Assembly: GCA_021397835.1 (NCBI GenBank)
Contig: JAJFZO010000094.1
Span: forward strand, 2,210,501 to 2,274,500
Origin: Moringa oleifera
Taxonomy: Eukaryota; Streptophyta; Magnoliopsida; Brassicales; Moringaceae
Length of the DNA stretch: 64,000 nt
Reading direction: 5' to 3'
Shown: piece after piece, positions 1-54,400 of the stretch
How positions within the stretch are numbered: the first letter of the stretch is position 1
Layout of the letters: every line of letters begins with the position of its first letter
Notes under the pieces: generated by a model
Databases searched by the model: none
What the model was told of the DNA's origin: nothing
Seen by the model: the letters and a program-made list of their open reading frames with translations, nothing else
Made by a program: the position numbers and the translations under genes

Positions 1-3000
1 CTGGAGAAAGGCATTAGCTGTTTGGCCGTTGTGTTATTGCATTCATACACCTATCCGGAGCATGAAATCTCTGTGCGAAAGTTGGCATTAGACTTGGGTT
101 TTAGACATGTCTCATTGTCTTCTGCATTGACTCCTATGGTTCGAGCTGTTCCTCGTGGTCTAACAGCCTCTGTGGATGCCTATCTTACCCCTGTTATTAA
201 AGAGTATTTTTCGGGGTTCGTATCCAAGTTTGACGAAGGGCTGGGAAAGGTGAATGTTTTATTCATGCAGTCAGATGGAGGACTTGCACCAGAAAGTAGA
301 TTTTCAGGACACAAAGCAGTTTTATCTGGTCCTGCAGGCGGAGTTGTTGGTTACTCACAGACTCTTTTTGGGCTTGAAACAGACAAACCTTTAATAGGGT
401 TTGACATGGGTGGTACATCAACTGATGTCAGCCGCTATGCTGGAAGTTACGAACAAGTTCTAGAAACCCAGATTGCAGGTGCTATTATCCAAGCACCTCA
501 GCTTGACATAAACACTGTTGCTGCTGGCGGTGGATCGAAGTTGAAGTTCCAATTTGGAGCTTTCCGGGTGGGTCCAGAATCAGTGGGTGCCCACCCTGGT
601 CCAGTTTGTTACCGGAAAGGAGGGGAGTTGGCAGTTACAGATGCAAACCTGATTTTAGGGTTTGTTATCCCAGATTATTTCCCATCCATCTTTGGACCCA
701 ATGAAGATCAACCCTTAGATATCAAGGCAACAAGAGAAGAATTTGGGAAGCTTGCAAAGCAATTAAATTCCTACAGAAAGAGCCAGGATCCATCTGCAAA
801 GGACATGACAGTGGAGGAGATTGCGCTGGGATTTGTAAATGTAGCTAATGAGACAATGTGCCGGCCAATACGGCAATTAACAGAGATGAAGGGCCATGAA
901 ACAAAGAACCATGCCCTTGCATGCTTTGGAGGGGCTGGACCCCAGCATGCCTGCGCTATAGCTCGTTCATTGGGTATGAAAGAAGTTCTCATTCACAGAT
1001 TCTGTGGGATCTTAAGTGCTTATGGCATGGGATTGGCTGATGTTGTTGAAGAAGCACAAGAGCCATATTCTGCGGTTTATGGTCCAGTAACTGCTGCCGA
1101 GGCCTCTTGTAGAGAAGCTGTGTTACTGAAGCAAGTGAAGCAGAAGCTGCAAGAGCAAGGTTTTAGAGAGGAAAATATCGCTACTGAGACATATCTAAAT
1201 TTGAGGTATGAAGGTACTGATACAGCAATCATGGTAAATAGACGAATCACTGAAGATGGATCAGGAAGCGACTATGCTGCTGAATTCAGGAAGCTGTTCA
1301 GGCAGGAGTATGGATTTGAACTTCAGAACAGGAATATCCTTATATGTGATGTGAGAATTCGTGGTATAGGAGTCACTAATATACTGAAGCCAAAGTCCCT
1401 AGAGCCTGCCCTTGGTGGTCCTAAAGTTGAAGGTCAGTACAAAGTTTATTTCATGAATGGATGGCATGACACTCCATTGTTCAAGCTTGAGAATCTGGGG
1501 TATGGGCATGTCATTCCTGGCCCTGCAATCATTATGAATGGGAACAGTACAGTGATAGTAGAACCTAATTGTAAAGCTATTATCACCAAATATGGCAACA
1601 TCAGAATTGAAATCGAGTCTACTTTAAGCACTGTGCAAGTTACAGAAAATGTTGCAGATGTTGTGCAACTCTCAATCTTCAATCATAGGTTTATGGGGAT
1701 AGCTGAACAAATGGGAAGGACCCTACAGAGAACTTCTATATCAACAAATATCAAGGAGCGGCTGGATTTTTCTTGTGCTCTCTTTGGTCCTGATGGGGGA
1801 CTGGTTGCCAATGCCCCTCATGTCCCAGTGCATTTAGGAGCTATGTCCAGTACAGTTCAGTGGCAGCTCAAGTACTGGGGTGACAAGTTAAATGAAGGAG
1901 ATGTCTTGGTCACCAATCATCCTAGTGCTGGTGGCAGCCATCTGCCAGATATAACTGTGATTACACCTGTTTTTGATAATCAGAAACTGGTATTTTTTGT
2001 TGCTAGTAGAGGCCATCATGCAGAGATTGGGGGAATTACTCCTGGAAGCATGCCGCCTTTTTCAAAGTACATCTGGGAGGAAGGAGCTGCAATAAAAGCA
2101 TTTAAGCTTGTAGAAAGGGGGATATTTCAGGAAGAAGGAATCATCAAATTGCTTCAATTCCCTTGTTCTGATCAATCAACTCATGCAATCCCAGGAACAC
2201 GTCGACTTCAAGATAACTTATCAGATCTTCGAGCACAAGTTGCTGCTAACCAGAGGGGAATTTTCCTTATCAAAGAGCTTATTGAGCAGTACGGTTTGGA
2301 TACTGTACAGGCTTACATGACCTATGTGCAGCTTAATGCAGAAGAAGCAGTCAGAGAAATGCTGAAGTCTGTTGCTGCTAGAGTTTCTTCTCAGTCAGCA
2401 AAGCTTGGAGAAAGATTCATAACTATAGAAGAAGAGGATTACATGGATGATGGGTCTGTTATTCATCTCAAACTTACAATTGATTCTGGTAAAGGAGAAG
2501 CAACTTTTGATTTTAGTGGGACAAGCCCAGAAGTTTATGGGAATTGGAATGCTCCAGAGGCAGTCACTGCTGCCGCGGTCATATACTGCCTCCGCTGCCT
2601 GGTGGATGTTGATATTCCTCTTAATCAGGGTTGTTTAGCTCCTGTTAAAATTTATATTCCGCCGGGCTCATTCCTCTCACCAAGCGATAAAGCTGCTGTT
2701 GTGGGAGGCAATGTTCTTACAAGTCAGAGAATAACTGATGTTATACTTACCGCATTTCAGGCCTGTGCCTGTTCTCAGGGTTGTATGAATAATCTCACTT
2801 TTGGGGATGATACTTTCGGTTATTATGAAACAATTGGAGGTGGTAGCGGGGCAGGTCCCTCTTGGGATGGAACTAGTGGGATCCAGTGCCATATGACCAA
2901 TACTCGTATGACTGATCCAGAGATTTTTGAGCAGAGATATCCTGTTATTTTGCATAAGTTTGGACTTAGAGGGAACAGTGGGGGAGCTGGATTGCATAGA

Positions 3001-3249
3001 GGGGGTGATGGGCTTGTGAGAGAGATAGAGTTTACGCGTCCAGTTGTGGTGAGCATTCTCTCAGAGAGGCGGGTACATGCACCTCGAGGCTTGAAAGGAG
3101 GGAAGGATGGAGCTTGTGGAGCTAATTACCTTATTATGAAAGATGAACGAAGAATCTACTTGGGAGGTAAGAATACAGTGAAGGTGCAGACTGGGGAGAT
3201 TCTTCAGATTTTAACCCCTGGTGGTGGCGGATGGGGTTCTTCTTGTTAA
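1..3249 (+). CDS. OXP1: 5-oxoprolinase, 3' part (start lies before the window)
   Basis: ATP-dependent cytosolic enzyme opening 5-oxoproline to glutamate in the gamma-glutamyl/glutathione recycling pathway. The frame is open from base 1, so the true start is upstream; plant OXP1 is about 1266 residues, so roughly 185 N-terminal residues are missing. Seen: hydantoinase A/oxoprolinase half (bases 1 to about 1600) with the glycine-rich ATP-site motif GFDMGGTSTDVSR near 400-440 and the AAGGGSKL stretch near 520; then a hydantoinase B half (about 1665-3230) beginning LSIFNHRFMGIAEQMGRTLQ and ending in a glycine-rich TPGGGGWG tail just before the TAA. There is no intron in more than 3.2 kb, as in Arabidopsis OXP1. 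No stops or frameshifts are seen, so this is very probably a functional gene. Confidence 0.96.
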   Translation: MEKGISCLAVVLLHSYTYPEHEISVRKLALDLGFRHVSLSSALTPMVRAVPRGLTASVDAYLTPVIKEYFSGFVSKFDEGLGKVNVLFMQSDGGLAPESRFSGHKAVLSGPAGGVVGYSQTLFGLETDKPLIGFDMGGTSTDVSRYAGSYEQVLETQIAGAIIQAPQLDINTVAAGGGSKLKFQFGAFRVGPESVGAHPGPVCYRKGGELAVTDANLILGFVIPDYFPSIFGPNEDQPLDIKATREEFGKLAKQLNSYRKSQDPSAKDMTVEEIALGFVNVANETMCRPIRQLTEMKGHETKNHALACFGGAGPQHACAIARSLGMKEVLIHRFCGILSAYGMGLADVVEEAQEPYSAVYGPVTAAEASCREAVLLKQVKQKLQEQGFREENIATETYLNLRYEGTDTAIMVNRRITEDGSGSDYAAEFRKLFRQEYGFELQNRNILICDVRIRGIGVTNILKPKSLEPALGGPKVEGQYKVYFMNGWHDTPLFKLENLGYGHVIPGPAIIMNGNSTVIVEPNCKAIITKYGNIRIEIESTLSTVQVTENVADVVQLSIFNHRFMGIAEQMGRTLQRTSISTNIKERLDFSCALFGPDGGLVANAPHVPVHLGAMSSTVQWQLKYWGDKLNEGDVLVTNHPSAGGSHLPDITVITPVFDNQKLVFFVASRGHHAEIGGITPGSMPPFSKYIWEEGAAIKAFKLVERGIFQEEGIIKLLQFPCSDQSTHAIPGTRRLQDNLSDLRAQVAANQRGIFLIKELIEQYGLDTVQAYMTYVQLNAEEAVREMLKSVAARVSSQSAKLGERFITIEEEDYMDDGSVIHLKLTIDSGKGEATFDFSGTSPEVYGNWNAPEAVTAAAVIYCLRCLVDVDIPLNQGCLAPVKIYIPPGSFLSPSDKAAVVGGNVLTSQRITDVILTAFQACACSQGCMNNLTFGDDTFGYYETIGGGSGAGPSWDGTSGIQCHMTNTRMTDPEIFEQRYPVILHKFGLRGNSGGAGLHRGGDGLVREIEFTRPVVVSILSERRVHAPRGLKGGKDGACGANYLIMKDERRIYLGGKNTVKVQTGEILQILTPGGGGWGSSC

Positions 3250-4559
3250 TTCTCTGAGTGACAAACTGTTGCGTGGGAGATCTGATCATCATGGTGAGTT
3301 TGCGTTCCCAAAATTTACCCTGATTTCCATCTTTTTCGGTAGTTTTCTGTGGTATAATTTGGATATCTCTTGTTCAGTGTTATTTTAGATCTCAATGATT
3401 AAATTTTTGTCATCATTTGATGATTTTGGCTTTCATAACGAAAGAAGAAGCTTAAATGATGTTCATGTTTCCAAATTTTTCGATTTAAAATCACCGACTA
3501 TGACAGCTTTAAGTGCATCTTATTTTCACATCAACCAGGAGTTCAACTGATTTTCTTGCTAAATTCAATTGCATTGTATTATCAATTTCTAGGAAATATA
3601 TTTCATCGGTTTCTAGTAACAGAGACTAGCCAATCTTTCGATTGTGACAATTTTAACTTTTCTCGTATAGAAGTCTTGTAAAGTTTGATGTTGGTCATAG
3701 GTGGCATACCACAAGGTGTAACTGTTGTATTTGTTAATAATGGATAATTATACTTTTGTGGTTTGCAGTCATTGGTAACCAACAAATTGGGTTGGCCTGG
3801 CATCTTCCTTCTCTCATGTTTGCTAAGCATTTAAGTGTGCGACAGATGAGAATGAACATAATCTACTTTCCGGTTGCCTTTTCCAGGTTGGTGGGAGTGG
3901 GTTCAAGACATTTGTGGAAGATGCACCCTATCCCCCTTTTTAAAATATGTTTTTTAATTTTTTTAAAAATAAAATTTCTCTATATTCCATATGAATAATT
4001 GAGTGTAATCCTTTTGAATACATGTAATCACTTTGAAGAAAATGATGGGTCATCTGCTGAGTACAGACCATAATCAATTGGCAGCTTTTCATTTCAATTT
4101 AGAGTACTACAAGCTGATAAACTTCCATGCAGGGTTGCAACATTTTTCTGTAGATTAACTTAGAATTTACTGTGTAATGTGTGAAAATGTATATCCATAC
4201 TACGAAAGATAACAATGCACTTACCACCCCGGTGTAATCAACCAAGATCAGTTCCATTATTGGACTATGGACTATGAAATAGAAGGTTAGCTTTTGGGTT
4301 TAAGGTGTGGTCCATGCAACAAAATGTTCATATGACAAATATTTTAAATTAGTATTTTATGCATTTCTTATTGTTCTGATTATTGTTATTGTTATCAAAC
4401 AAGTTTCAGTGAAATTTGGGCTTTGATAAATTTTTCTTCAGTTAAGTTTTATTTAATCCCATAATTATCAGCATCTAGTTCTTGAAAAGAGTATTCAGTG
4501 TTTGTTAAATAGGCATTATTGATATGAGAAAAGGTAAGGTGGGTCTTTCCTAAAGTTTC
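3250..4559 (+). other. OXP1 3' UTR and downstream spacer, with a possible 3' UTR intron
   Basis: Non-coding AT-rich DNA after the OXP1 stop. A good donor (ATG|GTGAGT, intron from 3294) and a pyrimidine-rich acceptor (TTTGCAG ending 3768) would make a 475-base intron in the 3' UTR. A short open frame at 3756-3998 has no family resemblance and I do not treat it as a gene. Nothing else is recognisable before the LINE. Confidence 0.4.
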
Positions 4560-39215: not shown

Positions 39216-39461
39216 ACTAGCAAAGATTTATTTATTTATTTATTTTTTTAAAAAGAAAATCAGATGCCACTATCGGCATGGCAGCATCATGAACAATTAA
39301 TGTGACCAAATTTATGGCTTATTTCTAAAGCCAATAGAGAGAGTGGCAATCATTCATCACATAGTGCATAAAAATATGTATTTGGTATTGTTGGCAGTTC
39401 CTACACCATTCAAAATAAATATGCATCCGAGCTTAAGTTTAAAGGACTCCTTGTGAATATG

Positions 39462-39470
39462 TATATATAA
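39462..39470 (+). promoter_or_regulatory. TATA box of the BAHD gene
   Basis: TATATATAA 47 bases before the ATG at 39517. Transcription would start about 25-30 bases after it, leaving a short leader. Confidence 0.6.
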
Positions 39471-39516
39471 ACACATGTGCATAGACATTGAAGATTGCAG
39501 AACCGAAAAAGAAAGC

Positions 39517-41917
39517 ATGGGAAGCCTCTGCCGAGAAACCCCAAGTCTTGCCCAAGACCTCAAAATCACCATTCATGACACTTGCCTTGTTTTCCCAGCA
39601 CAAGAAACTGAGCAAAAATCCATGTTCTTGTCGAACATTGACAAAGTTCTTAATTTTCAAGTCCAAACAGTTCATTTTTTCCCATCCAACAAAGACCTTC
39701 CTCCTTATGTCGTTGCTGAGAAACTGAAAAGTACCCTGAAAAAGTTACTGGTACCGTACCATTTCTTGGCCGGAAGATTTAAGCTGAATCCTAAAACGGG
39801 TCGTCTAGAGATCGACTGCAACAGTGCGGGAGCTGGATTTGTGGTCGCGTCTAGCGAGTATGAATTGGAGGAGATTGGTGACTTGGTTTACCCTAATCCT
39901 GGTTTTGCACGGCTAGCTCCCACTACAATGGAAAGCTTGGGAGACGATGATCAACCACTATTTACTATGCAGGTGACAAATGAAAGCTCCTCCTACCTTA
40001 CCACATTCCACTCGTTTTTCATGCATGATTCAAACTGATATCTCTTAATATGCTGGCGTATATAATTTTTATGCATTCAAGATGTTAATATTCCTCTATG
40101 AGCAAAGAATTATACTAAAATAACTTGTAAACTTGATGAATGCATATTCATTTTATTTGTCCAACAATATCTTTTGCGTGTCAAATACACAGGAGATCAC
40201 AACTGTTTACACCCAAAAAAAAAAAAAAGCAACAAATCTATGAAAGAATAGCCAGCTCCAAATATGGGAATGGTATTCATTTTATTATTAAAATAACTTT
40301 TCTCTATGAAAAACAATAATTTCATTAAAATATTATCATTTCGTTGAAGCATACTTAAATGATCAATTATGACATGCCTCTCCCTCTGCCATATCGTGAA
40401 AAATGGTTTTGCACGGAATTGAAAATTTGCACTTTGGGCATGGGCTCAACTGTAAGATATTAATGAGCTTCACGTAAAGGTTCAAGTGTACAAAAGATAA
40501 CTGGTCAACAGTTGAAAGCAAGGTAAAGCTAACCCAGCTAAACGGTCAGATCTAACTTTCATGTTCTACATATGTGAGTGAACAGTACGCTGTCTGAAAC
40601 TTATTTTAGAATTAATAGATGTCGATTGGCTCGGAGATCTGTTTGCACCAATTGCCGTGACAATCTATGAACACCTTTCTCATCGTCGTGGACCAGATGA
40701 TGACTTTGAGCCATGCAATTATTTTGCAATTATAACTATTGGCCTCCAGCCGACTAGTTGGATATTCAGATGACTATCATATCTGCAATTTACATGTTTT
40801 TGTGCATGTGACTGCATTTGTAATTGTACTGAGATTTTCCTGAACTGTTAAAATATTAATGTTAAATGCATTAAGTATATTAAAGATTTTGGAACCGTTC
40901 ATTAAATATGATGTGAGCTCTTAAGTACATTTTTTAGAACTATAGACTTGAAGTCTGACTTTGCCAGAATAAAAGGATAAGAGGCAGAACAAAGAATGAT
41001 AACTACGGGTTCTTTGACAGGTAACATCTTTCAGGTGTGGTGGCTTTGCCATGGGCATAGCTACCAATCATGCAACCTTTGATGGGCTTAGCTTCAAACT
41101 CTTCCTAGACAACTTGGCTGCCTTAGCGGCCGACAAGCCCCTGGCGATCACTCCCTGCAATGACCGTCAACTCCTGGCCGCGCGATCTCCCCCGCGCGTC
41201 ACCTTCTCCCACCCTGAACTCGTCCAACTCGAAGCCTTGAAACCTACAGTCTTTGATGATACCCATGAAGATCTTGACTTCAAAATCTTCAGGCTGACCC
41301 CTGAAGTCATCACCAACCTCCAGGAGAAGGCCACCGGTGGGCCGCTCCATAGCAACTTGCGGGTCTCAAGGTTCAACGCCATCACCGCTCTCCTATGGCG
41401 CTGCAAGGCCTTGTCATCATGTGAAACTGACACAACCTTAGGGACACTTCATGGCTTTGAGAGGGAGTCCACAATACTCTATGCAGTCGATATAAGGCCA
41501 AGACTGACCCCTCCACTGCCGCCATCCTACACCGGAAACGCTGTGCTAACTGCTTACGCCACGACAACATGCAAGGAGATACTTGAAGGGCCATTTTCGA
41601 GATTAGTGGATATGATATCAGAGGGAGCAAGACGCATGACAGATGAGTTCGCCAGGTCTGTGATAGACTGGGGTGAGCTCTACACTGGAATCCCTAATGG
41701 GGAGGTGCTGGTGTCATCATGGTGGAGGCTAGGGTTTGCAGAGGTGGAGTATCCGTGGGGTAGGCCTAAGTATAGCTCCCCTGTGGTGAACCACAGGAAG
41801 GACATCATCTTGCTTTTTCCTGATATCGATGACAAAGACGGTGTCAATGTTTTGGTTTCTCTACCTCGCAAGGAAATGATCAAGTTTCAAGGCCTATTTG
41901 AGAAGTTCTTGACTTAG
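39517..41917 (+). CDS. BAHD acyltransferase, two exons, intact
   Basis: Cytosolic acyl-CoA-dependent transferase that moves an acyl group to an alcohol or amine. Exons: 39517-39972 (152 codons, donor CAG|GTGACA) and 41021-41917 (acceptor TTTGACAG), giving 450 residues, normal for the family. ATG 39517 is chosen because it follows a TATA box and gives MGSLCRET; the frame extends a little upstream. The catalytic HXXXD is HATFD (bases 41069-41083, His169/Asp173). The C-terminal structural DFGWG motif is replaced by EYPWG (41747-41761, residues 395-399), followed by RPKYSSPVV. Resemblance, from memory, is to the clade annotated as omega-hydroxypalmitate O-feruloyl transferase-like; the substrate cannot be read from sequence. 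A 1048-base intron separates the exons. Confidence 0.92.
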
Positions 41918-42469
41918 AAGGGACTGTTGATATATGGTATATAACATAAATGTGCATAGCTGGGTAATATATGATTAGCTAAAACGTATTGAGATAAATG
42001 GGCTTAGCTTGTGATATTTTATAATACAGCCATTTAAAGAAGTGTATCACATACTCGGTGACATGTGGCTGGACAAAATAAATGTTACTTCAACAATGTT
42101 CTATGAAATGAACAGTTGGTCCTCCTTCCGGATTTCTCTTCCCTTCCCCTTTTATATGGTTCGTTTCACTATGCCCTTCGTTGTTCCTATTCCTAGTCCA
42201 ATTTTTTCTTTCGTCCACTCTTTATGATCACAAGTAGTAAGTTATCGGTGTCTTCTCCGCATAGTGGTTATGCTCAGTGCGCCTATGATATGTCTTTTGT
42301 GCAGGGTGACGTTCGACAGGTGTCACTTCTGTTACGTGCGTGCTTTTGGACTGCGCCTCCCTCTTTTTTACCAATCATCAGGCATTGGGTCCCCCTTGAC
42401 TTGATTTTGTGCATGCATATTCATTTGAGGGGTGTTTGTTTTTGTAGCTGTCTTTATAAAAATATTTAC
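41918..42469. other. BAHD 3' flank
   Basis: Non-coding; small frames at 42042 and 42224 have no recognisable family. GC content falls towards the MULE edge. Confidence 0.4.
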
Positions 42470-42471
42470 GT

Positions 42472-42490
42472 AAATAATCAAAATTAGTAA
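42472..42490 (+). repeat. Candidate left terminus of the MULE
   Basis: AAATAATCAAAATTAG resembles the inverse of the right end (AAATTGTCAAAATTAG), with 14 of 16 bases matching. In such AT-rich DNA this could be chance. Confidence 0.35.
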
Positions 42491-42989
42491 TGTATTTGTT
42501 TTTATTACATTTTAGACATTTAAAACAAAATTATCCTTTGTGTAACATATGTAATTACTTATTTGTCCAAACATAGAATTTGAGAAGTCAAACATATCAA
42601 TCGTCTCTCTTTCCCTCTCTTATTACTCTGACGCTAAACTTCATCACTTAGTTTCGTCCCTTTACATTCGGTGTTTGTTCATTTCTTCGCTTTCGTTGTA
42701 AATCGACCTTTGAAGAATATCCGCAAGCTATTGAGTCACAAAAAAATCAATAGCAGTATGTTTTTAAATAATATTTTCAACTCAAATTCTTCATTCTTTT
42801 TTGCTGAATATCGACTTAGTTTCATCCCTCATTTTTCATTTATTATTTTTTTAATATTTTTGAGTTTGGTTTATGGGTATAATAGCTTGAATACACGTTT
42901 TGTTTAATATTTTTGGGCTTTGGTATTAGTTTTCCAATTTGCGATGTTTGGGTGATAAATAGCAGTGTATTGTTGCATCAGTTTATCAT

Positions 42990-43200
42990 ATTCGTACCAT
43001 GTTAGGGCAAATCGTTCATAGTTTTAGGAATCGCACTAATTAATCGTATCTAGTTTCATAAAGCGTACCTAATTTTTGGTAAATCATACATACTTTTGGT
43101 AAATCATACCTAATTTTTGTAAATCATACATAGTTTTTGTAAATCGTACCTAGTTTTTGAAATCGTACCAATTTATTGTATCAAGTTTTTTAAATCGTAG
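42990..43200 (+). repeat. 20-bp tandem array 5' of the DUF1985 gene
   Basis: Unit AAATCRTACMTAGTTTTTGT, with copies starting at 43081, 43101, 43121, 43141 and (one base short) 43160, preceded by degenerate copies back to about 42990. Each unit carries TCGTACC or TCATACM. It lies just upstream of the first recognisable exon. Confidence 0.85.
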
Positions 43201-43263
43201 CTTATTATTGTTTACTCTAATTTTGACGTTTTTTCCGCCTAAGCAACCAGCTTTACTTCACAG

Positions 43264-46200
43264 AAGCCATATGTGATCCTCAGAGAGTCCTGGAATATTG
43301 AAAAGATACTAAAACACTGCAATAATGATGTCATCCCTACCTTAAAGGAAATTTTGGATGACTCTCAGAAGAAAAAGTTTGAAAGGACCTGCTTAAGGCA
43401 TTTTCTACATTTGCACAAAGATTTTAACTTCTCTGAGATTATTGTCTATAATCTTCTGCTTAGAAAGATTCAACAAAACCGCGATGACGAAATATGGTTT
43501 AGACTTGGGCAGAATAAAGTTCGTTTTAGCAAAGTCGAATTCTGCCTAATCACTGGCTTGAAGTTTGGCAAGCTACTGGACATAGACAAAATTGCAAAAA
43601 ATCCATCTAGTATTCTCACTAAATACTTCGGGGGGAGGGGTAATGTCAGCGGTAGTAGCATCAAGACAAGGCTGCTCGAAGGAGAGTTTGAAGATGAAGA
43701 TGACAAGTTGAAGTTGGGCTTACTGTATTTGCTAAATGGTTTCATCAAAGGCCACGACGAGCGCCAGTATGTACCCACGTGGCAGCTCCTTTTAGTAGAT
43801 AATATTGAAACCTTCAACTGCTTTCCATAAGGCACATGGGTGTATTGCAACTCCTTGCAGCATTTCAAGAAGACAGTTACGAATCGAGCCATGGACGTTA
43901 AAAAGGTGAACTACAATGCCTATGGCTTCATATGGGCACTACAAGTAAGGACCATACTTTTTTATTTTTTATTCATTTATTTAATTGAATTCATGTTTTA
44001 TCTTCATGAAGCCTAACTTGATTTTCTTTTCTTTTTTCATAAATTTTTGCCTCCGAAGTGATTCCTGCTACCAACATGCATGGTAGTAGATTGATAGGCT
44101 CGAAACTGCCATTGCCTCGAATTTACCGATGGAGGTTCCATCGAAAGCCACATGTCGCAGATTGCAAGAAGATTTTCACTAACACTGTAAGTAATATCGT
44201 ATCTTCATTTTCATTTCGTACCTATCTTTCCAATTTCGTGTCTTCATTTTTCAATTTCATACCTACATTCTCAATTTTGTGTAGCATATTTCAATTTCGT
44301 ACTTATTTTCTCAATTTCATGTCTTCATTTTTCAATTTCGTACCTACATTCTCAATTTCGTGTATACATTTTTCAATTTCGTACCTTCATTATCAATTTC
44401 ATGTTTTCTTTTTTCAATTTCGTACCTTAATTCTCAATTTCGTACCTACATACATTCTCAATTTCATGTCTTTAATTTTTAATTTCGTGCCTATATTCTT
44501 AATTTCGTGTCTTCATTTTTCAAATTCGTACCTACATTCTTAATTTTGTGTCTTTATTTTTCAACTTCATACCTACATTCTCAATTTCATATCTTTATTT
44601 TTCAATTTCGTACCTTTATTCTTAATTTTGTACTTTTATTTTGTAATTTCGTACCTTCATTCCTCATTTTGTATCTTCATTTTTCAATTTAGAAGCTTTA
44701 TTTCGTATTTTCAGATAATGGCTAAGCTAAAGTTAGACCCAACAATTGCTAAGAGCCATGCCCCTTATTATGTTGGAGTTGAAGACTTGGTCATGCTGTT
44801 ACAGCCAGATGCTCAAGCCAATATGTCGGCTACACGATTGAGTGGGGATGAGTACACTGTGGAGGGTCTCATCCAAGACAACTTCACGAAATTGTATTCT
44901 TCTTTGCCAAAGCAATACAAGGTATATATTCTTCATAATAGATATGAGTTTTGTTGTTGTGTTTTATAATTAACAACTTATGTTACTTGCAGCGACGAGT
45001 TGGCTTTCTTCATGTCGAGCGACCAAGGGATTATGCATCTGATGAAGTCGTCAGTGACAGAATAGAGCTGAGGCCACAGAGGATGGCCCCTGAGGTGCCA
45101 AAGTGTAACATTGAAGGTGAAGCACCTGGCGTAGAAAGAACTGCAGAGGATTCAGAAGTTTGCCGTCGCCTCACTACTATGGAGGCGAAATTAGATCTCT
45201 TTGAGGTGAAGGTAAACCAAATGGAATCACAAAATGAAAGACACCATGAGAAGCAAATGGCGTTCTTAAAATCCATCCAGCTCTCCCTATAAGGATATGG
45301 ATTTGGTATGTCAGAACTAGTTCCTAATGATGTACCTAATGTCGTATGTAACAATTACTTTAGTTTTTGATTTTTAATATTGTACAACTTATGACATGAA
45401 GATGAAATCTTTAATTGTTTTCTCTTTTTTTTAAGGTTTCAATGCAGGTTTCGCATCACATCATCTCATCATTGAGGAAGCTAGGGACTCTGCAGACTTC
45501 GTAGAGGAGATCTTGACTCGTGCAGTGCACTTCCATGAAAAAAAAAGCCACTGCAGGGCCAATTACAGAGGAAGTGGCCACTGTAGGGCTAATGGATGAG
45601 GAAGTGGCCCCTGCAGTAGGTCTACACAATGAAGAAGTGGGAGGCTTGGCTATTACCCAAGTTGAGGCAACTGACAGTGTGCTGCCAGTTGTTAGGTCTC
45701 GTAAAATGTCAAGACAACTGTGCAGCCCATATGTCAACCTTAACACTAGGGAAAAGATAGCCAAGTACTCTCGCATGGTGAGTACAAAGGCCAAATTCAC
45801 AGGCAAGATCCTCACTGCATTCAACGAGTTCATGAGTGGTCAATCATAGTACGTCATTTATAATTATATTTTTTGTTTTATTAGCTAGATTGAATTTTCA
45901 TTTTTTAACTTTTTCTCACGCTTTATTTTCATTTTCTTTAGCCATAATGTAGGTATCGGTCATTCGGTTAGTATAGAATGGTTTAAAGCCTTCAAAGACA
46001 ATGATGAATGGGTCGATGACTCTGTAAGTTAGTCATTTTACAAACTACTGTTCTTTACATTCTTATCATACTAGAATTAACATTCGTGCCTTCACTTCGT
46101 ATACTGATTTAATATTACATTATTATTTTTGTTGTGTCAACTAGCATATTTGAGTCTCCTTCGAAGAAGGTAAAGGGAGTTTCCTCAATAATATGCACAA

Positions 46201-47060
46201 AATGTTTGTATCTGCAATCCTTGGCTCTATGTAAGTTTTATAGACTTCAATTGTTTAGATACTTTATATTCAATTTGTTTATTGACTTTGGTTTACTCAA
46301 ATTTGTAGACATCAATTTTTTACATTTACAATGAATATCAAGCGGATCCAGATGCTGATTGTCCTCCTCCACACTCTAATTTTGAAGCACATAAGTGGGA
46401 ACCAGACTTCCTAGATCGTGTAAGAGGCAAATTTGGTCATCATTGTCCAGCTTGGCACACTGTGAATAAGGTATGTGTATCTTCATTGGTTTTAACTATT
46501 TTCTTGCAATATTATGAGAACTTATAACTGACATTTAAACAATATTTTTTAATGTAGTTGATAGTTCCATGCCACGTTGAGGGATCTCACTGGCTACTAG
46601 TGGTTGTAGATTTGCAGACATTTTCTTGACGAATTTTTGACTCTTTCCGACAAGAGATCCCCACTGAGGTGCGTATTCGGCAACAAAACCCCCTCAAATA
46701 TATGCTGCCTAGTTACATGGCTAGCGGGGGATATTTCATGCAAAAATCAGATGTTAATAAGCCGAATATTCCACTTTCATGCTTACTAGAGTCAAAGAAC
46801 AAGGTTCCCCAGCAGAAAAAAAGGTAAGAGTCTTTTTTGCTAATTATTATCCTTATTTAGAAGTTTTTTATTCAATGTCAATTTCTTTTAACTGTGTTGT
46901 TATTTTTTTCAGTGGCAATTGCAGGCCTCACATGTTGTACATAATAGAGCATTTACTAGCTGGAAAAGCACTGAAATACAATGACAAAGACATGCCAAAG
47001 ATACGGAAACATATGACCATACATGTATTCGCTAACTCAATTGTAGATGATAAGGGTTAA
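43264..47060 (+). pseudogene. MULE-borne DUF1985 / Ulp1-like (C48) protease gene, disrupted
   Basis: Exon-like blocks: 43264-43944 (DUF1985: FCLITGLKFGK and a LLYLLNGF helix), 44058-44186, 44715-44921, 44993-45292 (coiled-coil-like RLTTMEAKLDLFEVKVNQME), about 45437-45849, about 45945-46023, about 46330-46470, about 46560-46824 and about 46911-47060. The last two hold C48 peptidase traces: His in EGSHWLLVVV, Asp in IFDSF, and the cysteine block GNCRPHMLYIIEHLLAG, where DCG is expected. Breaks: TAA at 43828 after NCFP, TAA ending the 45292 block, TGA near 46628, and a probable lost acceptor before 44058 (GAA|GTG). Such genes are TE passengers; roles proposed elsewhere include SUMO/ubiquitin cleavage and, for DUF1985 VANC proteins, anti-silencing. 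Confidence 0.75.
44188..44705 (+). repeat. About 22-bp tandem array in an intron of the DUF1985 gene
   Basis: Roughly 22 copies of a unit like TCAATTTCGTACCTACATTC, often alternating with a TCGTGTCTTCATTTT form so the higher-order period is about 44. At least eight copies have exact TCGTACC. It fills the intron between 44187 and 44714. Long frames here (44058-44692) are the repeat translated, not protein. Confidence 0.9.
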
Positions 47061-47224
47061 TTTGTGTTATTCTTTTTACATTACATTGTATTCATTTGTA
47101 TATACATTCAAAAATTGTGTATAATATTTTTTTTGCTAATAAAAGAATCATTTTCAATACGTTGTGTAATCATCTTACTTCTTCCCTCATCTACCAATAA
47201 TTTTCAGTATATTGTAAGTGTTCA

Positions 47225-47770
47225 TTGAAGACTATTGAATGTGCGATTTATTTAACATTGAAGATACGATTTTACTAATGAAGGTATGATTTATTTACCA
47301 TTAAAGGTATGATTTTGCTAATAAAGGTATGAATTAATAGTGTGATATAATATTTAAGGTACGATTTTACGAATAAAGGTGCGAAATGATTGTACGATTC
47401 AATATTTAAGGTACGATTTTTAGTGTTGCATTTGTGAAAATAATGGTACGAATTAAATGTACGATTTATTATTTAAGATACGAATATAATGTACGATTTT
47501 ACTAATAAATGTGCGAATTGATGGGGTGATATATTATATAAGGTACGATTTTACGAATAAAGGTGCGAAATGATGGTGCGATTCAATATTTAAGGTACGG
47601 TTTTAGTGTTGCAAGTGCGAAAATGATCGTGCGAATTAAAGGTACAATTTATTATTTAAGATACGATTACAAGGTACGATTTTACTAATAAAGGTGCAAA
47701 TTAAAGGTATGAAGTCATAGTCAGTAGGTATGATTTAGTATTGAAGTTGGAAATTGAAGGTGCGAAATCA
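47225..47770 (+). repeat. GGTACGA array between the two MULE genes
   Basis: Many short units (GGTACGATTT, GGTGCGAA, GTACGAATTA) packed between the two gene ends, arranged in a higher-order tandem pair: 47355-47538 and 47539 to about 47700, period about 184. At least five exact GGTACGA copies. The core is the inverse of the one in the two left arrays. Confidence 0.9.
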
Positions 47771-47934
47771 TTGTCCAATCAATTGCATTGCCAATATTGC
47801 CACCATTACATGAATTGACCTGTACAAAACTGTCAATACCGTATAAAAACTTAAAAATCTCAAAATAGTATACCAATCAGTAATGAAAAATAAGTTTTGC
47901 AAATAATAATAATATAATCAAAACATTAGGATTA

Positions 47935-50648
47935 TCATAAATCAATTGTGTCATCATCTAGTAAAGTTGAATTGAGAGGCATTTTACAAGTTTGTGAATT
48001 ATGCCCAACTCCACCACAATTACGACATTTACGACGCAACTGATTAGGCACCTTAGACGATCGAAAGTGACTCACTCCATCATAATATTGTGGAATCGAG
48101 TACGTCAATCGATTGTGTCCATATTGCATGCATCTAGAGCACTTTTTTTGGACCGTCCTCTCCCCACTAGAGGGTATTCTCTATTGTTTAGGACGCCCTG
48201 CTGACTTACCATTATTTGGTGGTAATACCACAACTCTTCTAACTTCCTCAAGTACATCCCAATCAGACTTATCACCAATTGGATATACCAGCTCAGAGTA
48301 TGTTACTACTAGTTAATCCTGTTTATAGTAGTTAAAGCAAAGAGTTATGAAGTCAATCTTATGTTCCCTGTAAAAAAAAAAACCAATTTGTGAAGTTAAT
48401 ACAAGCAATAACAATGAATAATTAAAAAATATTACCAACAGAACCATCAATGTCACTTGGAAGCTGCTAGTGCATGTGCACATGGCAAAAGATCAGCCTG
48501 AAACTCTCTATAAGTGCAAGTACGTTCAATAAGATTCACAATTGCCTCCTTACCCTTTTGCCTAACTAAAAATACATTCCAATCAACATTAGAAACTGTC
48601 ATTTGTAATGAAACTTTTTGTTTCTCAGTTATCAATAAGTGAGCCCATTCTGTTAGTTGTGACCTCCAAACCTTAGCTTTTTCAAGTTGATTATAGAACC
48701 AATGTTGCGTCATGTCTCGAATGAATTCCAATAGAGCTATCATGCGTAACTCTTGAGCAAATCACAGAGACGAATTCAAGCTCTCAGCTATGTTAGTGGT
48801 CATGAGTTGATATCGTCTTCGGGGGCAATACACACATGACCATTTTCTTGGATCTTCCTTCATGATATATTTGAATACTTTAGGGTGATTAGCTTGCAAA
48901 TCAATCATCAATTTATTAAATTTAGATTCTCGATATACCCTTGCTGCATTATAAAATGTCTTAGATATATCTTCCCTCTTAAATTTATTCTTTGTATTTT
49001 GGGCCATATGCCACGAACATAAACCATGACAAGAATTGGGGAAGACCTTTTTGATGGCATTTGAAATACTGACATGATGATCTGATATAATAACCGAGTC
49101 CTCAACCGAACCTATAGCTTCTTTCAGCTGCCGCAAGAACCACTCCCATGCATCATAGTTCTCGGAGTCACCATAACCGAATGCTAGTGGATATATCTGT
49201 TCATTCCCATCTTTGCATGCCATTACAAACATTACACCGTGAAACCTCCCTTTTAAGTGAGTGGCATCGATAGCAATGACTTGTCTGATTACTAAATGGA
49301 ACCCCCTCAACGATTGCCCAAGAGCCACAAATAAATACTTAAATCGATTAGTTCCATCTTCAATGCATATGTGGGCCTTAGTTCCTAGATTAACTATTTG
49401 CAACAGGTGGTAGTATGACGGCAATTGTTGATATGACTCAATTGGGTCACCATATGTAAGAGACAATGCATGCTCTTTAGCCTTCCAAGCTTTACTGTAT
49501 AAAATTTATATGTCATAGAGTTCTTTCATATCACCCATGATATCTTTCGGCTTAATGATTCTAGTATTAGTAGACAATCTTTGAGCCACAATTTCTCCCA
49601 TAATGGCAGAACTTGCTTGTCAATGCCGTCGATGCAACTCTTCAACTGTGCAAGTGTGTGTCAAATCACACTTTCTAATTTGGAAGAATTGCCCTTGTGC
49701 AACTCTCATAGCACGAATCTTCTATGTACAATTTCTTTCCCTACAAGCAATCTCAAATAATGATTTTTTATACCTAGTGACTCTAAATTCAAAGTTCTCA
49801 GTTAAAGCATGCACACCCAAAAATCGCTTCAATTCTTTTCTGTTCAGAAAAAATTGACTTCTAGCAAAGGTGTCAATTGGAATCACTGATTCTATAGTAG
49901 AAGTTGACGCAAGACCGCGTAATTCAGCACCCAACACACCATACCGGCTGACAACACCATCACTTGAATTATTATGTACTTCCGGGCATATAACTGGGAC
50001 ATAAGGTGAGACAGGACGTAGGTTCTCATTCAATTCTTCATTATCAGGTTCTGTTTCTAGAATGAGTTCACATTGATCTTCACTGAAGGGTTGAGTAGGA
50101 TGAGTTTCCATAATTGGGTATTTACACCTAATATCATAGTCCATCCGCTCATCCAAGTTGATCTTATTGGTATGGATCTCATTAATATGCTGAGTGTCAA
50201 CGGGAGTCTCACTATGGATGGATGGTTCAATGCCATAAACATCTAATTCAATAGTTGGATTACTCCCAGAACAACTTATGTTAATAGAATTGACTTGTCC
50301 TGAAATTTCACATTTACATAAACTTTGTCTATTCTCAACAAAATTTCTCTCAACTAGATCAACAATCACACGAGGAACTATGCTGTCATTGTACAACATA
50401 AACTCAACATCGTCATCATTCACTAACTCAATTTTCCTAGCAGTTTTTTCAGATCTTACTATGGTATGCAGTACAACATCAGTCATAGTGAAATCAACCT
50501 CCACACAAGATTTAACCAAATCCAGCAACTGCACATATGTCAAACCACTCCGAATAATATATCCCTTAGTTTTGATATCTCTGCCAACATACTCAAAACT
50601 ACCATTAGACTCAGACCACTCACCATTTCAAGTTACAATTATCCGCAT
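47935..50648 (-). pseudogene. MuDR/MULE transposase, five point nonsense codons
   Basis: DDE transposase that cuts and inserts MULEs. From ATG 50648 (MRIIVT) one frame runs to 48453 with no frameshift but stops at 50628-50630, 49722-49724, 49620-49622, 49506-49508 and 48759-48761. N-terminal domain YVQLLDLVKSCVEVDF; a MuDR DNA-binding-like region around 49780-49860 (FEFRVTRYKKSLFEIACRE); MULE core with Asp in VIAIDATHLKG, Asp in VIISDHHVSI, the LCSWHM motif and Glu in NIAESLNSSL; SWIM finger CTYREFQADLLPCAHAL near 48460-48520. After a probable intron (about 48440 to 48370) a last part ends with a CX2CX4HX4C knuckle (CRNCGGVGHNSQTC) and stop at 47935. Confidence 0.85.
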
Positions 50649-50711
50649 TCTGTAATGCCAAAGAAAATATTTCAAATGACAACTGAAAAGAATTACTTAT
50701 AACATAAAATA

Positions 50712-50900
50712 AGGCACGATTTTATAAACTTGTTACCATTTCATGAGAGAAGTTATGAATTAGCATAATAATGTTACGATTTACTAAGATATGATTTTCA
50801 AACATATATATTTTTTCATATTCTATATATAACGAAGAACACTTATATTTAAGTTACGTTATTGTTCAAATGCATAATTATGTTACGATTTATCAATTAA
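50712..50900 (+). repeat. Sparse RTTACGATTT motifs upstream of the transposase
   Basis: Copies GGCACGATTT (about 50713), GTTACGATTT (about 50775 and 50884) and related ATATGATTTT between the transposase start and the right end. More degenerate than the other arrays but the same orientation as 47225-47770. Confidence 0.6.
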
Positions 50901-50906
50901 GATATG

Positions 50907-50933
50907 ATATATATATATATATATATATATATA
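50907..50933. repeat. (AT)n microsatellite
   Basis: AT dinucleotide run inside the MULE right flank. Confidence 0.9.
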
Positions 50934-51374
50934 AGGAAGGATACAAGTTACATTCAAGCTACATTATTGTTCAAAGGTATATCCGTCACCCTTTTCACAT
51001 TCGAGCACGTTCTGATTATGAAGACAAATATGATGTGAAAAAACACGAGATTGAGAAATATGCACTCAAAAATACGAGCTTTCTTCTCTGCAGGACAAAA
51101 AGTTAAAAATGTTAATGACTACCTTCGATTCCTTCTTTGGATCTTGGATACAAAGGAGGGAAGAAAAAACCAAAAGAGAGAGTAAAGAAAAACCCAAAGA
51201 GAGAGAGATCTCAAAAGGAAAAAGTATTCAGACAGATCTCCTCAATTTTTGAGTTATTTTAATTTCAAGGGTATCATTATCTTTTGTAAGGGTATTTTTG
51301 TCTTTCTGATTCATGTAAGTGCCTAAAAAAAAACAACATAGTAAAAGAAGTTTATTTTGCAAAAAAAAAAAATT

Positions 51375-51400
51375 GGTGGGATGCTAATTTTGACAATTTC
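51375..51400 (-). repeat. Right terminus of the MULE
   Basis: GGTGGGATGCTAATTTTGAC followed by AATTTC. The same end with few changes closes the second MULE at 61137-61162, and read from outside in it begins GAAATTGTCAAAATTAG, typical of plant MULE ends. Confidence 0.65.
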
Positions 51401-51666
51401 TTCTTCATTTGAGCTCTTTGTTTCTGATTTCTAACTGGCATCAAACATCTCCCTTTTCTGGCAAGTCTTTTGTTAGTAGGATCAAATGGGCTCATATTGC
51501 TTGTCCAACATAAAGTTATTTTATTTAGCAATAAAATTTAAAATATTATTTATTCATGCTTAGTTAATATCATTAATAAAACCAAATGAATTCACTCAAC
51601 AAGAAAGTTTCTTGATTCTTTGGTGACCCTGCAAGCTTTCTAACTTCGCCCATATATTCACTTCTG

Positions 51667-52019: not shown

Positions 52020-54400
52020 GCTTCAATAATTAACATATCATCAACATATGACAATAGTATAATATAAGACTAATCATATCTTTTGACATAATAACAATGG
52101 TCTGCTTGGCACCTTAAGAAACCATTGTCACCTATGAAGTTATCGAACTTCTTATACTATTGTCTAGGAGCTTATTTTGACTAATATAAACTTTTTTAAA
52201 GTTTGTATATCATTTTCTCCTTACCTTTAACTTCAAATCTTTGTGACTGATATATGTAAATTTCTTCCTTTAAATCACAGTCCTGGAAGATCTTCTCACT
52301 TCTGTTACAAGAGTAATTAGATTTACCTCTAAGTCATACTTTTCTGATTTCTTTTAGCAATGTAGTCTTTAATTTCTTAAGTGTTTTGTTGCAACTGATT
52401 CATCGGAACATATCTCAAGTGGATTACTTTAGGCTTTTTTACTTTAGAATTTTTTACTTCTAAACTCTTGCTTAAACTATCTTTATATAGAGTTTGTTCA
52501 TTGAAGATTACATTCCTACTCCTAATGACTTCCTTGTTTTCGTTATCCCAAAAATGATAACCAAACTTATTGTCACCATGTCCAATGAAAAAAATATATT
52601 TTTTGATTTAAGATCAAATTTACCTCTAGCAACAACATCAATATATATGGACTTAAGGTAGGTAACCAAATATTCTTAAAAAAGACTTTACTTTTTTATA
52701 TCACTCCAAACTTTCTTAGGTATTCTAGAATTCAAACAAACTGAAGGACTTCTATTGATTAGAAAAGTTGTAGTGTTAATTGCATCTGTCCAAAAGGATT
52801 TGGGCAACCATACGTGAATTCTCATGCCTCTTATATGCTCATTCAGTGTCTTATTCATCCTTTTTGCAACATCATTCTGCTGAGGTGTTCTTGGAATAAT
52901 GTTCCCCATCTTGAACCATTACTAGCAGAAAACTGTTTAAAATCCTCATCAATGTATTCTCTATTATTATTAGATCTAAAACGCTTAATCTGAAAATTAA
53001 TCTCATCCTTAACCATGCTTCATTTTTTGAAAGCATCAAACACATCAGATTTATTCTTAAAAAAATAAATTCATATCTTTCTAGTTAAGTCATCAATAAA
53101 CATTACGTAATAGCCAGATTACCCAAGAGATGTTACAATGAAGGCCCTTATACATTTGTGTGAACTAACTCTAGTTTTTTTGTACTCCAACTTATTTCCT
53201 ACTTTGGAGAAGCTGACCTTTTTTTGTTTGCCAAAGATACAGTTTTCACATAATTTATGCTCTACGAATTTCAAATCTAGCAAATTATTTGCCACAATGA
53301 CTTTCATACTCTTTTCATCCATATACCTAAGTGAGAAATGCCATTAATTGAAGTTTATACCAGTGTCAATAGCAGTCACTATATCATTGTAATTTGAAAT
53401 CATGTAGAGGGTTCCAGTTTTACTCCCTTCAGCAACAACTATAGCGCATATTGTAATTTTTCAAGTATTATCATTAAAAATCATCTTGTGCCCTTTATTA
53501 TTAAACTTCCAACTAAAATCAGATTTTCCATCAATTTTGGCACATGCCTCACCTTTTAAATCTTTCACATATTTTTATTTGGTATCTCCAATTTAACATC
53601 ACCCATACTAATAATATCCAAAAGTTCTTTATTAGTAAGATATAACTTTTTAAAGTTATCCACAACATAATATTCCATTATTTTGCTATATGGAGTGGTA
53701 TAAAAAGATGTTATTGAGTCCAAAACTCAAGATTCAAGAGGATTATCAATAGCCAAATGTAATACACTATCTACCTTATTTATGATAGCATTTGCGGTAT
53801 CATCTTTATTTTTACATTTTTCCTTCAATGATCAGTAATCTTTTTTCATGTCACCATTTTTTTTCACAGTTTTATCATTATAGATTTCTTCCAAATTTAG
53901 ACTTGCTTATTCCATTCTTTGACTTAGATTTGCTCTTATTGCAATTAAAATTTTTATCACTTTTTTTTTCCTATTTTTAACATTTAGGACGGAATTTGAA
54001 ATTGATATTTCATCCGAATCGATTTTTCGAACATCCTTTGTAAGAATTTGATCATGAACATCATTGAAATTAAGTTTTGAACTCCCAATAAAATTACTAA
54101 TCATTGCCCTCATAAGATCTTAATTGTCAAAAGTATTAGGATACATACCCCATCATCAAATTTAATCTTTACAAAAGATAACTAATTGACAATAGTATTA
54201 AACTCATTAATATGAGTTACCATAAAATTTCTTTTACCCATTTCCAAGTGAAATAGCTTCTTTATAACAAAAATCTTGTTATTTACTGAAGGTTTTTCAC
54301 ACATGTTAGATAGCATCTTCATCAGACTTATTGTTGTTTTCTCTTTCGTCACGTCATAAGCGACATTCTTTAACATTGTCAACCGAATAGCTACTAGTTC
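52020..54400 (-). pseudogene. Copia gag-pol remnants
   Basis: On the - strand from right to left: gag UBN2-type segment 54382-54182 (MTMLKNVAYDVTKE, then GKRNFMVTHINEFN); GAG-pre-integrase segment 53322-53119 (HKLCENCIFGKQKKVSFSK); integrase C-terminal core 52909-52688 (PRTPQQNDVAKRMNKTLNEH, where the family has QQNGVAERMN, so the catalytic Glu is Lys here); reverse transcriptase about 52240-52020 (KSLY then APRQ, RCQADHCYYVKRY and YVDDMLI) with several stops. Aspartates of YVDD are kept but the frame is dead. Confidence 0.75.

Follow-up and report, generated by a model that had tools for sequence, protein, structure and literature searches.

Oriented arrays of a CpG-containing core in a Moringa oleifera MULE: candidate binding sites for a VANC-like protein

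The element and its two genes

The 64,000-nucleotide stretch of Moringa oleifera DNA analyzed here (contig JAJFZO010000094.1; "the window") contains a decayed Mutator-like element (MULE) in which copies of a seven-base core, TCGTACC or its complement GGTACGA, form arrays in the non-coding DNA around a VANC-like gene and a transposase gene. These arrays are candidate binding sites for the VANC-like proteins of the element family. The element and its genes are as follows.

42429..51403, no strand: non-TIR (terminal inverted repeat) MULE, VANDAL-like, 8,975 bp
42420..42428 (left) and 51404..51412 (right): 9-bp target-site duplication TTCATTTGA, a direct repeat flanking the element
43243..43830, + strand: first exon of the VANC-like gene (decayed), with DUF1985 at about 43456-43827 (Pfam PF09331, E 3.2e-20)
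46320..47060, + strand: Ulp1-like C-terminal exons of the VANC-like gene (decayed), recognized by eye
47935..50627, - strand: transposase gene (decayed), with the MULE domain (PF10551, E 3.2e-22) in 48762-49505
48453-48761, - strand: SWIM-like region of the transposase (E 0.003; 17.5 bits, below the cut-off of 19.6)
47935-48180, - strand: CCHC zinc knuckle of the transposase (PF15288, CCHC_6, E 9.9e-6, above its cut-off)

Homology with 20 sister copies starts and stops within some bases of these boundaries, and the termini read GGGGT...TTTCTTC. When 120 bp from each end were compared, the best match of one end to the reverse complement of the other was 16 bp (E 0.016) and did not lie at both very ends; terminal inverted repeats are thus absent or degenerate. 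A direct repeat of 8-10 bp is present at the ends of the window copy and of 16 of 21 other copies; the same terminal comparison gave none in sisters L018, L021, L024 and L028, the match in L015 was misplaced and is not counted, and L029 is outside the tally. The MULE transposase domain with a CCHC knuckle, a SWIM-like region below its cut-off, the 9-bp duplication and the absent or degenerate inverted repeats are features of non-TIR, VANDAL-type elements.

The two genes are convergent, and one array lies between their ends. An earlier note, made from the sequence alone, had placed a DUF1985 domain in one of the genes, in agreement with the Pfam match. Its further claim, that the element encodes a DUF1985 factor, holds for intact sisters but not for the window copy, in which stops or broken frames interrupt both genes. 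Pfam gave no match on the two window open reading frames tried for the Ulp1-like region; these exons correspond to Peptidase_C48 (E 3.1e-24) in the intact sister L030, for which an 830-aa protein with DUF1985 and an Ulp1 protease domain is predicted. No third gene was recognized among the open reading frames of the element, although no systematic search for one was made.

Oriented arrays of a seven-base core

The core or variants of it occur in four non-coding zones of the element.

42992..42998, + strand: single TCGTACC core heading the upstream zone
43042..43180, + strand: upstream array with a 20-bp unit; two TCGTACC cores exact, the others decayed
44193..44703, + strand: intron array with a 41-bp (20+21) unit; 8 exact TCGTACC, interspersed with other TCGT and TCAT variants
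47231..47775, - strand: intergenic array between the convergent gene ends; 5 exact TCGTACC, with 52-bp and 184-bp higher-order repeats
50713..50888, - strand: right-end zone upstream of the transposase gene; variants GGCACGA at 50713 and GTTACGA at 50773 and 50882

Enrichment of the core, proposed as a check on the earlier note, is pronounced. The element has 16 exact copies (11 TCGTACC and 5 GGTACGA), while 200 dinucleotide shuffles had a mean of 0.255 and a maximum of 2; with up to one mismatch, there are 49 copies versus a mean of 9.7 in shuffles (sd 3.3, maximum 20). The enrichment score of TCGTACC (17.8) is the highest of all 7-mers in the element, the best score of any 7-mer in 100 shuffles being 7.1, while six A/T-rich 7-mers exceed it in raw count. 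The remaining 55 kb of the window contain two exact copies, and the 279.5-Mb genome contains 8,892, i.e. about 32 per Mb versus about 1,780 per Mb in the element, an approximately 56-fold difference.

By zone, the exact cores on the + and - strands number 3 and 0 upstream of the DUF1985 gene, 8 and 0 in its intron, 0 and 5 between the genes, and 0 and 0 at the right end. Thus, the claim that TCGTACC is common to all four zones stands for three of them, while the fourth has variants that read TCGTGCC (GGCACGA) and TCGTAAC (GTTACGA) on the - strand. In the 20 sisters that belong with the window copy to subfamily A (see below), the upstream zone has 3-8 exact TCGTACC and the right-end zone 2-4 GTTACGA each. 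The 20-bp upstream array and the intergenic higher-order array of about 184 bp were both described correctly, the latter duplication extending over 216 bp at 87% identity. By contrast, the intron array, described as having a 22-bp unit, has a period of 41 bp (lag-41 identity 0.70), and unit lengths are not unrelated between zones, as 97 of 150 successive core gaps in four loci measure 18-22 bp.

The described strand split, with TCGTACC on the + strand at the left and GGTACGA at the right, is evident both in the window and in sister stretches. In 22 stretches (the 20 A sisters, L030 and the window, with L029 left out), TCGT[AG][AC]C occurs 411 times on the + strand and 3 times on the - strand in the left half, and 324 times on the - strand and never on the + strand in the right half. 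In L009, L030 and L029, the strongest period of core-to-core distances in the range of 5-30 bp is 10.15 bp (0.463 versus 0.397 at 20.3 bp); gaps of 13 bp (12 of the 150 successive gaps) do not fit this helical phase.

Genome-wide, there are 545 pairs of TCGTACC at a distance of 18-22 bp, versus 27 for the control. On contig C1, which holds the window, 11 clusters are seen among the first 100 pairs listed; by eye, nine of these, the window included, lie at a DUF1985 or transposase match. One cluster is L057, where positions 1278-3396 are a 2.1-kb non-autonomous element of the B2 type (see below) with the 9-bp target-site duplication TTTTATAAA. Tblastn with three protein pieces (the DUF1985 exon, the final 230 aa of the Ulp1 part and 247 aa of the transposase) gave no match in L057; both terminal arrays are retained in their usual orientations in this one example, which is not part of a survey.

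Sister copies and the TCGTxxC series

Genome searches listed at least 151 transposase and at least 150 DUF1985 matches, including those of the window, and many have long open frames. From the other 149 DUF1985 loci listed, we sampled 42, picked for their spread of identity, 22 as 10-kb and 20 as 1.8-kb stretches. In a tree of the DUF1985 exon with 43 rows, the window included, these loci fall into the clades A (21 rows, among them the window), B2 (8), B1 (7), C (4) and D (2), with a single row as E. Between subfamilies, this first exon is under purifying selection.

The core varies with these clades. In the upstream and intron zones, the mean number of TCGTACC per locus is 14.1 in A, 16.1 in B2, 8.7 in B1, 1.8 in C, 0.5 in D and 0 in E; that of TCGTAAC is 4.1 in B1, 2.0 in D and 0 in the other clades; and that of TCGTATC is 6.0 in D, 4.0 in E, 3.2 in C and 1.1-2.2 in the rest. 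The 10-kb stretch of L030 (B1) has 37 TCGTAAC and 15 TCGTACC, and 9 kb of L029 (C) have 10 TCGTGAC, 7 TCGTGCC, 6 TCGTATC and 3 TCGTACC, where at most 1.35 are expected per variant. In other words, the arrays in the sampled clades are built on TCGTxxC, clearly so in A, B1, B2 and C and weakly in D; TCGT and the final C are constant, while bases 5 and 6 shift with the DUF1985 clade, from TCGTACC in A and B2, to TCGTAAC with TCGTACC in B1, to TCGTGAC and TCGTGCC in C. The cores of D and E are uncertain because these copies are decayed, with stops, and their arrays are weak. The 7-mer topping each upstream or intron zone is TCGTNNC itself in 11 of 86 zones and, in 42 of 86, a word that has five bases in common with it; an A/T flank plus TCGT often ranks first, and the bound motif may therefore exceed 7 bp on its left.

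The CpG within TCGT is invariant in the arrays of every clade with clear arrays. In hand-chosen arrays, the observed/expected ratio of CpG is 2.49 in A, 2.25 in B2, 2.21 in B1, 1.50 in C and 1.99 in the window copy, versus 0.47 in the whole window, and TCGT on the sense strand of the arrays accounts for most of these CpGs (53 of 72 in A, 63 of 70 in B2, 75 of 85 in B1, 35 of 44 in C and 38 of 52 in the window copy).

Several further features were observed beside these arrays. B1 and C elements have arrays in a later intron (L030 3834-4042; L029 4143-4392), where the window copy has no tandem array, and a 165-bp tandem array (5.7 copies, 97% matches) occupies L029 9063-10000, on the right side of this C-clade element. 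The genome-wide count of TCGTGCC was uninformative about the C motif because the word recurs in a satellite-like manner; on contig C1, it is found by eye at a phase of about 182 bp in such an array at about 28-190 kb. In the window, a BAHD-type acyltransferase gene (39457-41917) adjoins the element; its best relatives are omega-hydroxypalmitate O-feruloyl transferase-like proteins with at most 70% identity, the top three of which are from Malvales. On the other side, open frames at 52377-53084 on the - strand resemble, by eye, pieces of a Copia-type retrotransposon integrase.

What the arrays may bind, and relation to known systems

Based on these data, we suggest that the repeats are, in all likelihood, binding-site arrays for a VANC-like protein encoded by the family itself. 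The DUF1985 and Ulp1 protein of an intact sister, its homology to VANC21, the oriented TCGTxxC arrays and the variants that follow the clades all point to this reading. In this model, the VANC-like protein from intact sisters would bind the TCGTxxC core through its DUF1985 region, with a core spacing of about 20 bp, i.e. two helical turns, helping binding. Binding would remove or prevent DNA methylation over the element and, as a result, both element genes would be expressible. With its VANC-like gene broken, the window copy is, judging from its sequence, a target and not a source of the protein, and it would respond only to protein from intact sisters. It is possible, although we regard it as rather unlikely, that recognition depends on methylation state, either because the protein binds and clears methylated sites or because silencing blocks binding, giving a bistable switch. 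If so, the CpG excess in the arrays of young copies would record sites that were unmethylated in the germ line. Whether a factor of this type can itself read methylation is a question posed by the CpG in the core.

The repeats could instead be neutral, having arisen by slippage in non-coding DNA, and the shared core would then go back to a single ancestral array, copies of which spread around the element. Arrays do grow and shrink from one copy to another and, within subfamily A, the core columns show no better conservation than the spacers: in three of the four zones, the core was equaled or beaten by most rotated masks, and CpG positions are among the worst conserved, dead A copies seeming to decay at these positions, as methylated CpGs do. 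This lack of excess conservation speaks for neutrality and counts against binding sites. Between subfamilies, however, a different pattern is evident in the zones compared. Among subfamily representatives, those A repeat words that B2 and B1 both also carry at high frequency overlap with the core plus its A/T flank. Most spacer words are not found again, except for some common to A and B1 such as CTTCATT, which fits neutral copying. Because two methods put the synonymous divergence of A and B2 at 0.55-0.79, the shared core does not merely reflect recency. Thus, selection on the core, suggested in the earlier note, and its retention while spacers diverge, proposed there as a check, find signs between subfamilies and none within A. 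The CpG excess, concentrated in TCGT on one strand, the almost perfect split in orientation and the retention of arrays in the deleted derivative L057 also argue against neutrality, which we consider improbable.

If the arrays were subterminal transposition sites bound by the transposase, L057, which keeps them near both ends, and the zinc-finger-like motifs of the transposase would be accounted for. The densest arrays, however, are remote from the ends, in the intron and in the intergenic zone, and L029 has a transposase about 80% identical to that of the window at the DNA level, yet TCGTGAC and TCGTGCC as its commonest cores; its DUF1985 exon is 58% identical at the protein level. Binding by the transposase is therefore very unlikely. 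Sites for host transcription factors, or enhancers, could drive the transposon genes without any relation to the DUF1985 protein, and the positions of the arrays, ahead of one gene and within its intron, with variant cores upstream of the other, would suit enhancers. Host factors do not predict a core that varies by subfamily within one host genome, and the homology of the DUF1985 region to VANC21, known in complex with DNA, also speaks against them, leaving this explanation with hardly any probability.

Returning to binding by the VANC-like protein, the DUF1985 exon matches Arabidopsis VANC21 by sequence and fold, the VANC21-DNA crystal structure (PDB 9lnj, 9lnk) being the only fold match under E 0.001. 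The independent lineage proposed in the earlier note is rejected because of this homology; together with an Ulp1 domain of the KIU type, it places the protein in the same VANC family. The named relatives of the window's proteins are eudicot, with DUF1985 relatives in Acer, Dipteronia and Xanthoceras. A 2022 EMBO Journal paper on co-evolving anti-silencing systems reportedly covers gain and loss of Ulp1 and DUF287, helical periodicity and at least ten systems.

In the parts of PMC5735166 consulted, VANC21 binds YAGTATTAY in tandem arrays of non-coding regions, VANC6 acts on AGTTGTCC/AGTTGTAC in similar arrays, and DUF1985 and DUF287 are noted for VANC proteins. VANDAL21 thus resembles the present element in being a MULE with a homologous DUF1985 protein and with a short motif repeated in tandem, in one orientation, within introns and in intergenic and terminal non-coding DNA; VANDAL6 likewise has a related protein with its own motif pair in non-coding tandem repeats. 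By contrast, the VANC21 motif and the differing VANC6 motifs, the latter from another host than Moringa, lack a CpG, and VANC proteins are drawn there with DUF287, while the protein here carries an Ulp1 domain. Pfam, with E up to 1, gave DUF1985 and Peptidase_C48 alone on the L030 model, with a profile set not confirmed to include DUF287.

According to the sections of a review consulted (PMC13317346), KIU is an Ulp1-bearing VANC that acts on motifs of KIU-bearing elements, and Ulp1 capture is dated to the monocot/eudicot split. KIU/KAONASHI elements are, like the present one, non-TIR MULEs with an Ulp1 domain in the VANC gene, and the ULP domain lies opposite to the transposase in both (PMC2528002, in part). 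They differ in that the literature examined on KIU does not show a TCGTxxC series, and in that, of the three genes of the KIU type, two were recognized among the open reading frames here. The ULP-bearing MULEs of grapevine, melon and rice (PMC2528002) share the ULP1-like region, while motif arrays are not mentioned in the text examined; nor did the literature searched yield a VANC-type motif outside Arabidopsis, which does not prove absence.

Thus, in the sequence features tested, the system fits a known kind, VANC/VANDAL anti-silencing of the Ulp1-bearing (KIU) type. One genome would then hold related subfamilies, several with open reading frames, in which VANC-like proteins and target cores diverged together and, with the VANC21-DNA crystal structure, how VANC proteins change specificity becomes testable by subfamily swaps. 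What appears to be new is the TCGTxxC motif series with its invariant core CpG, absent from both published motifs compared, those of VANC21 and VANC6 as given in the source portions consulted.
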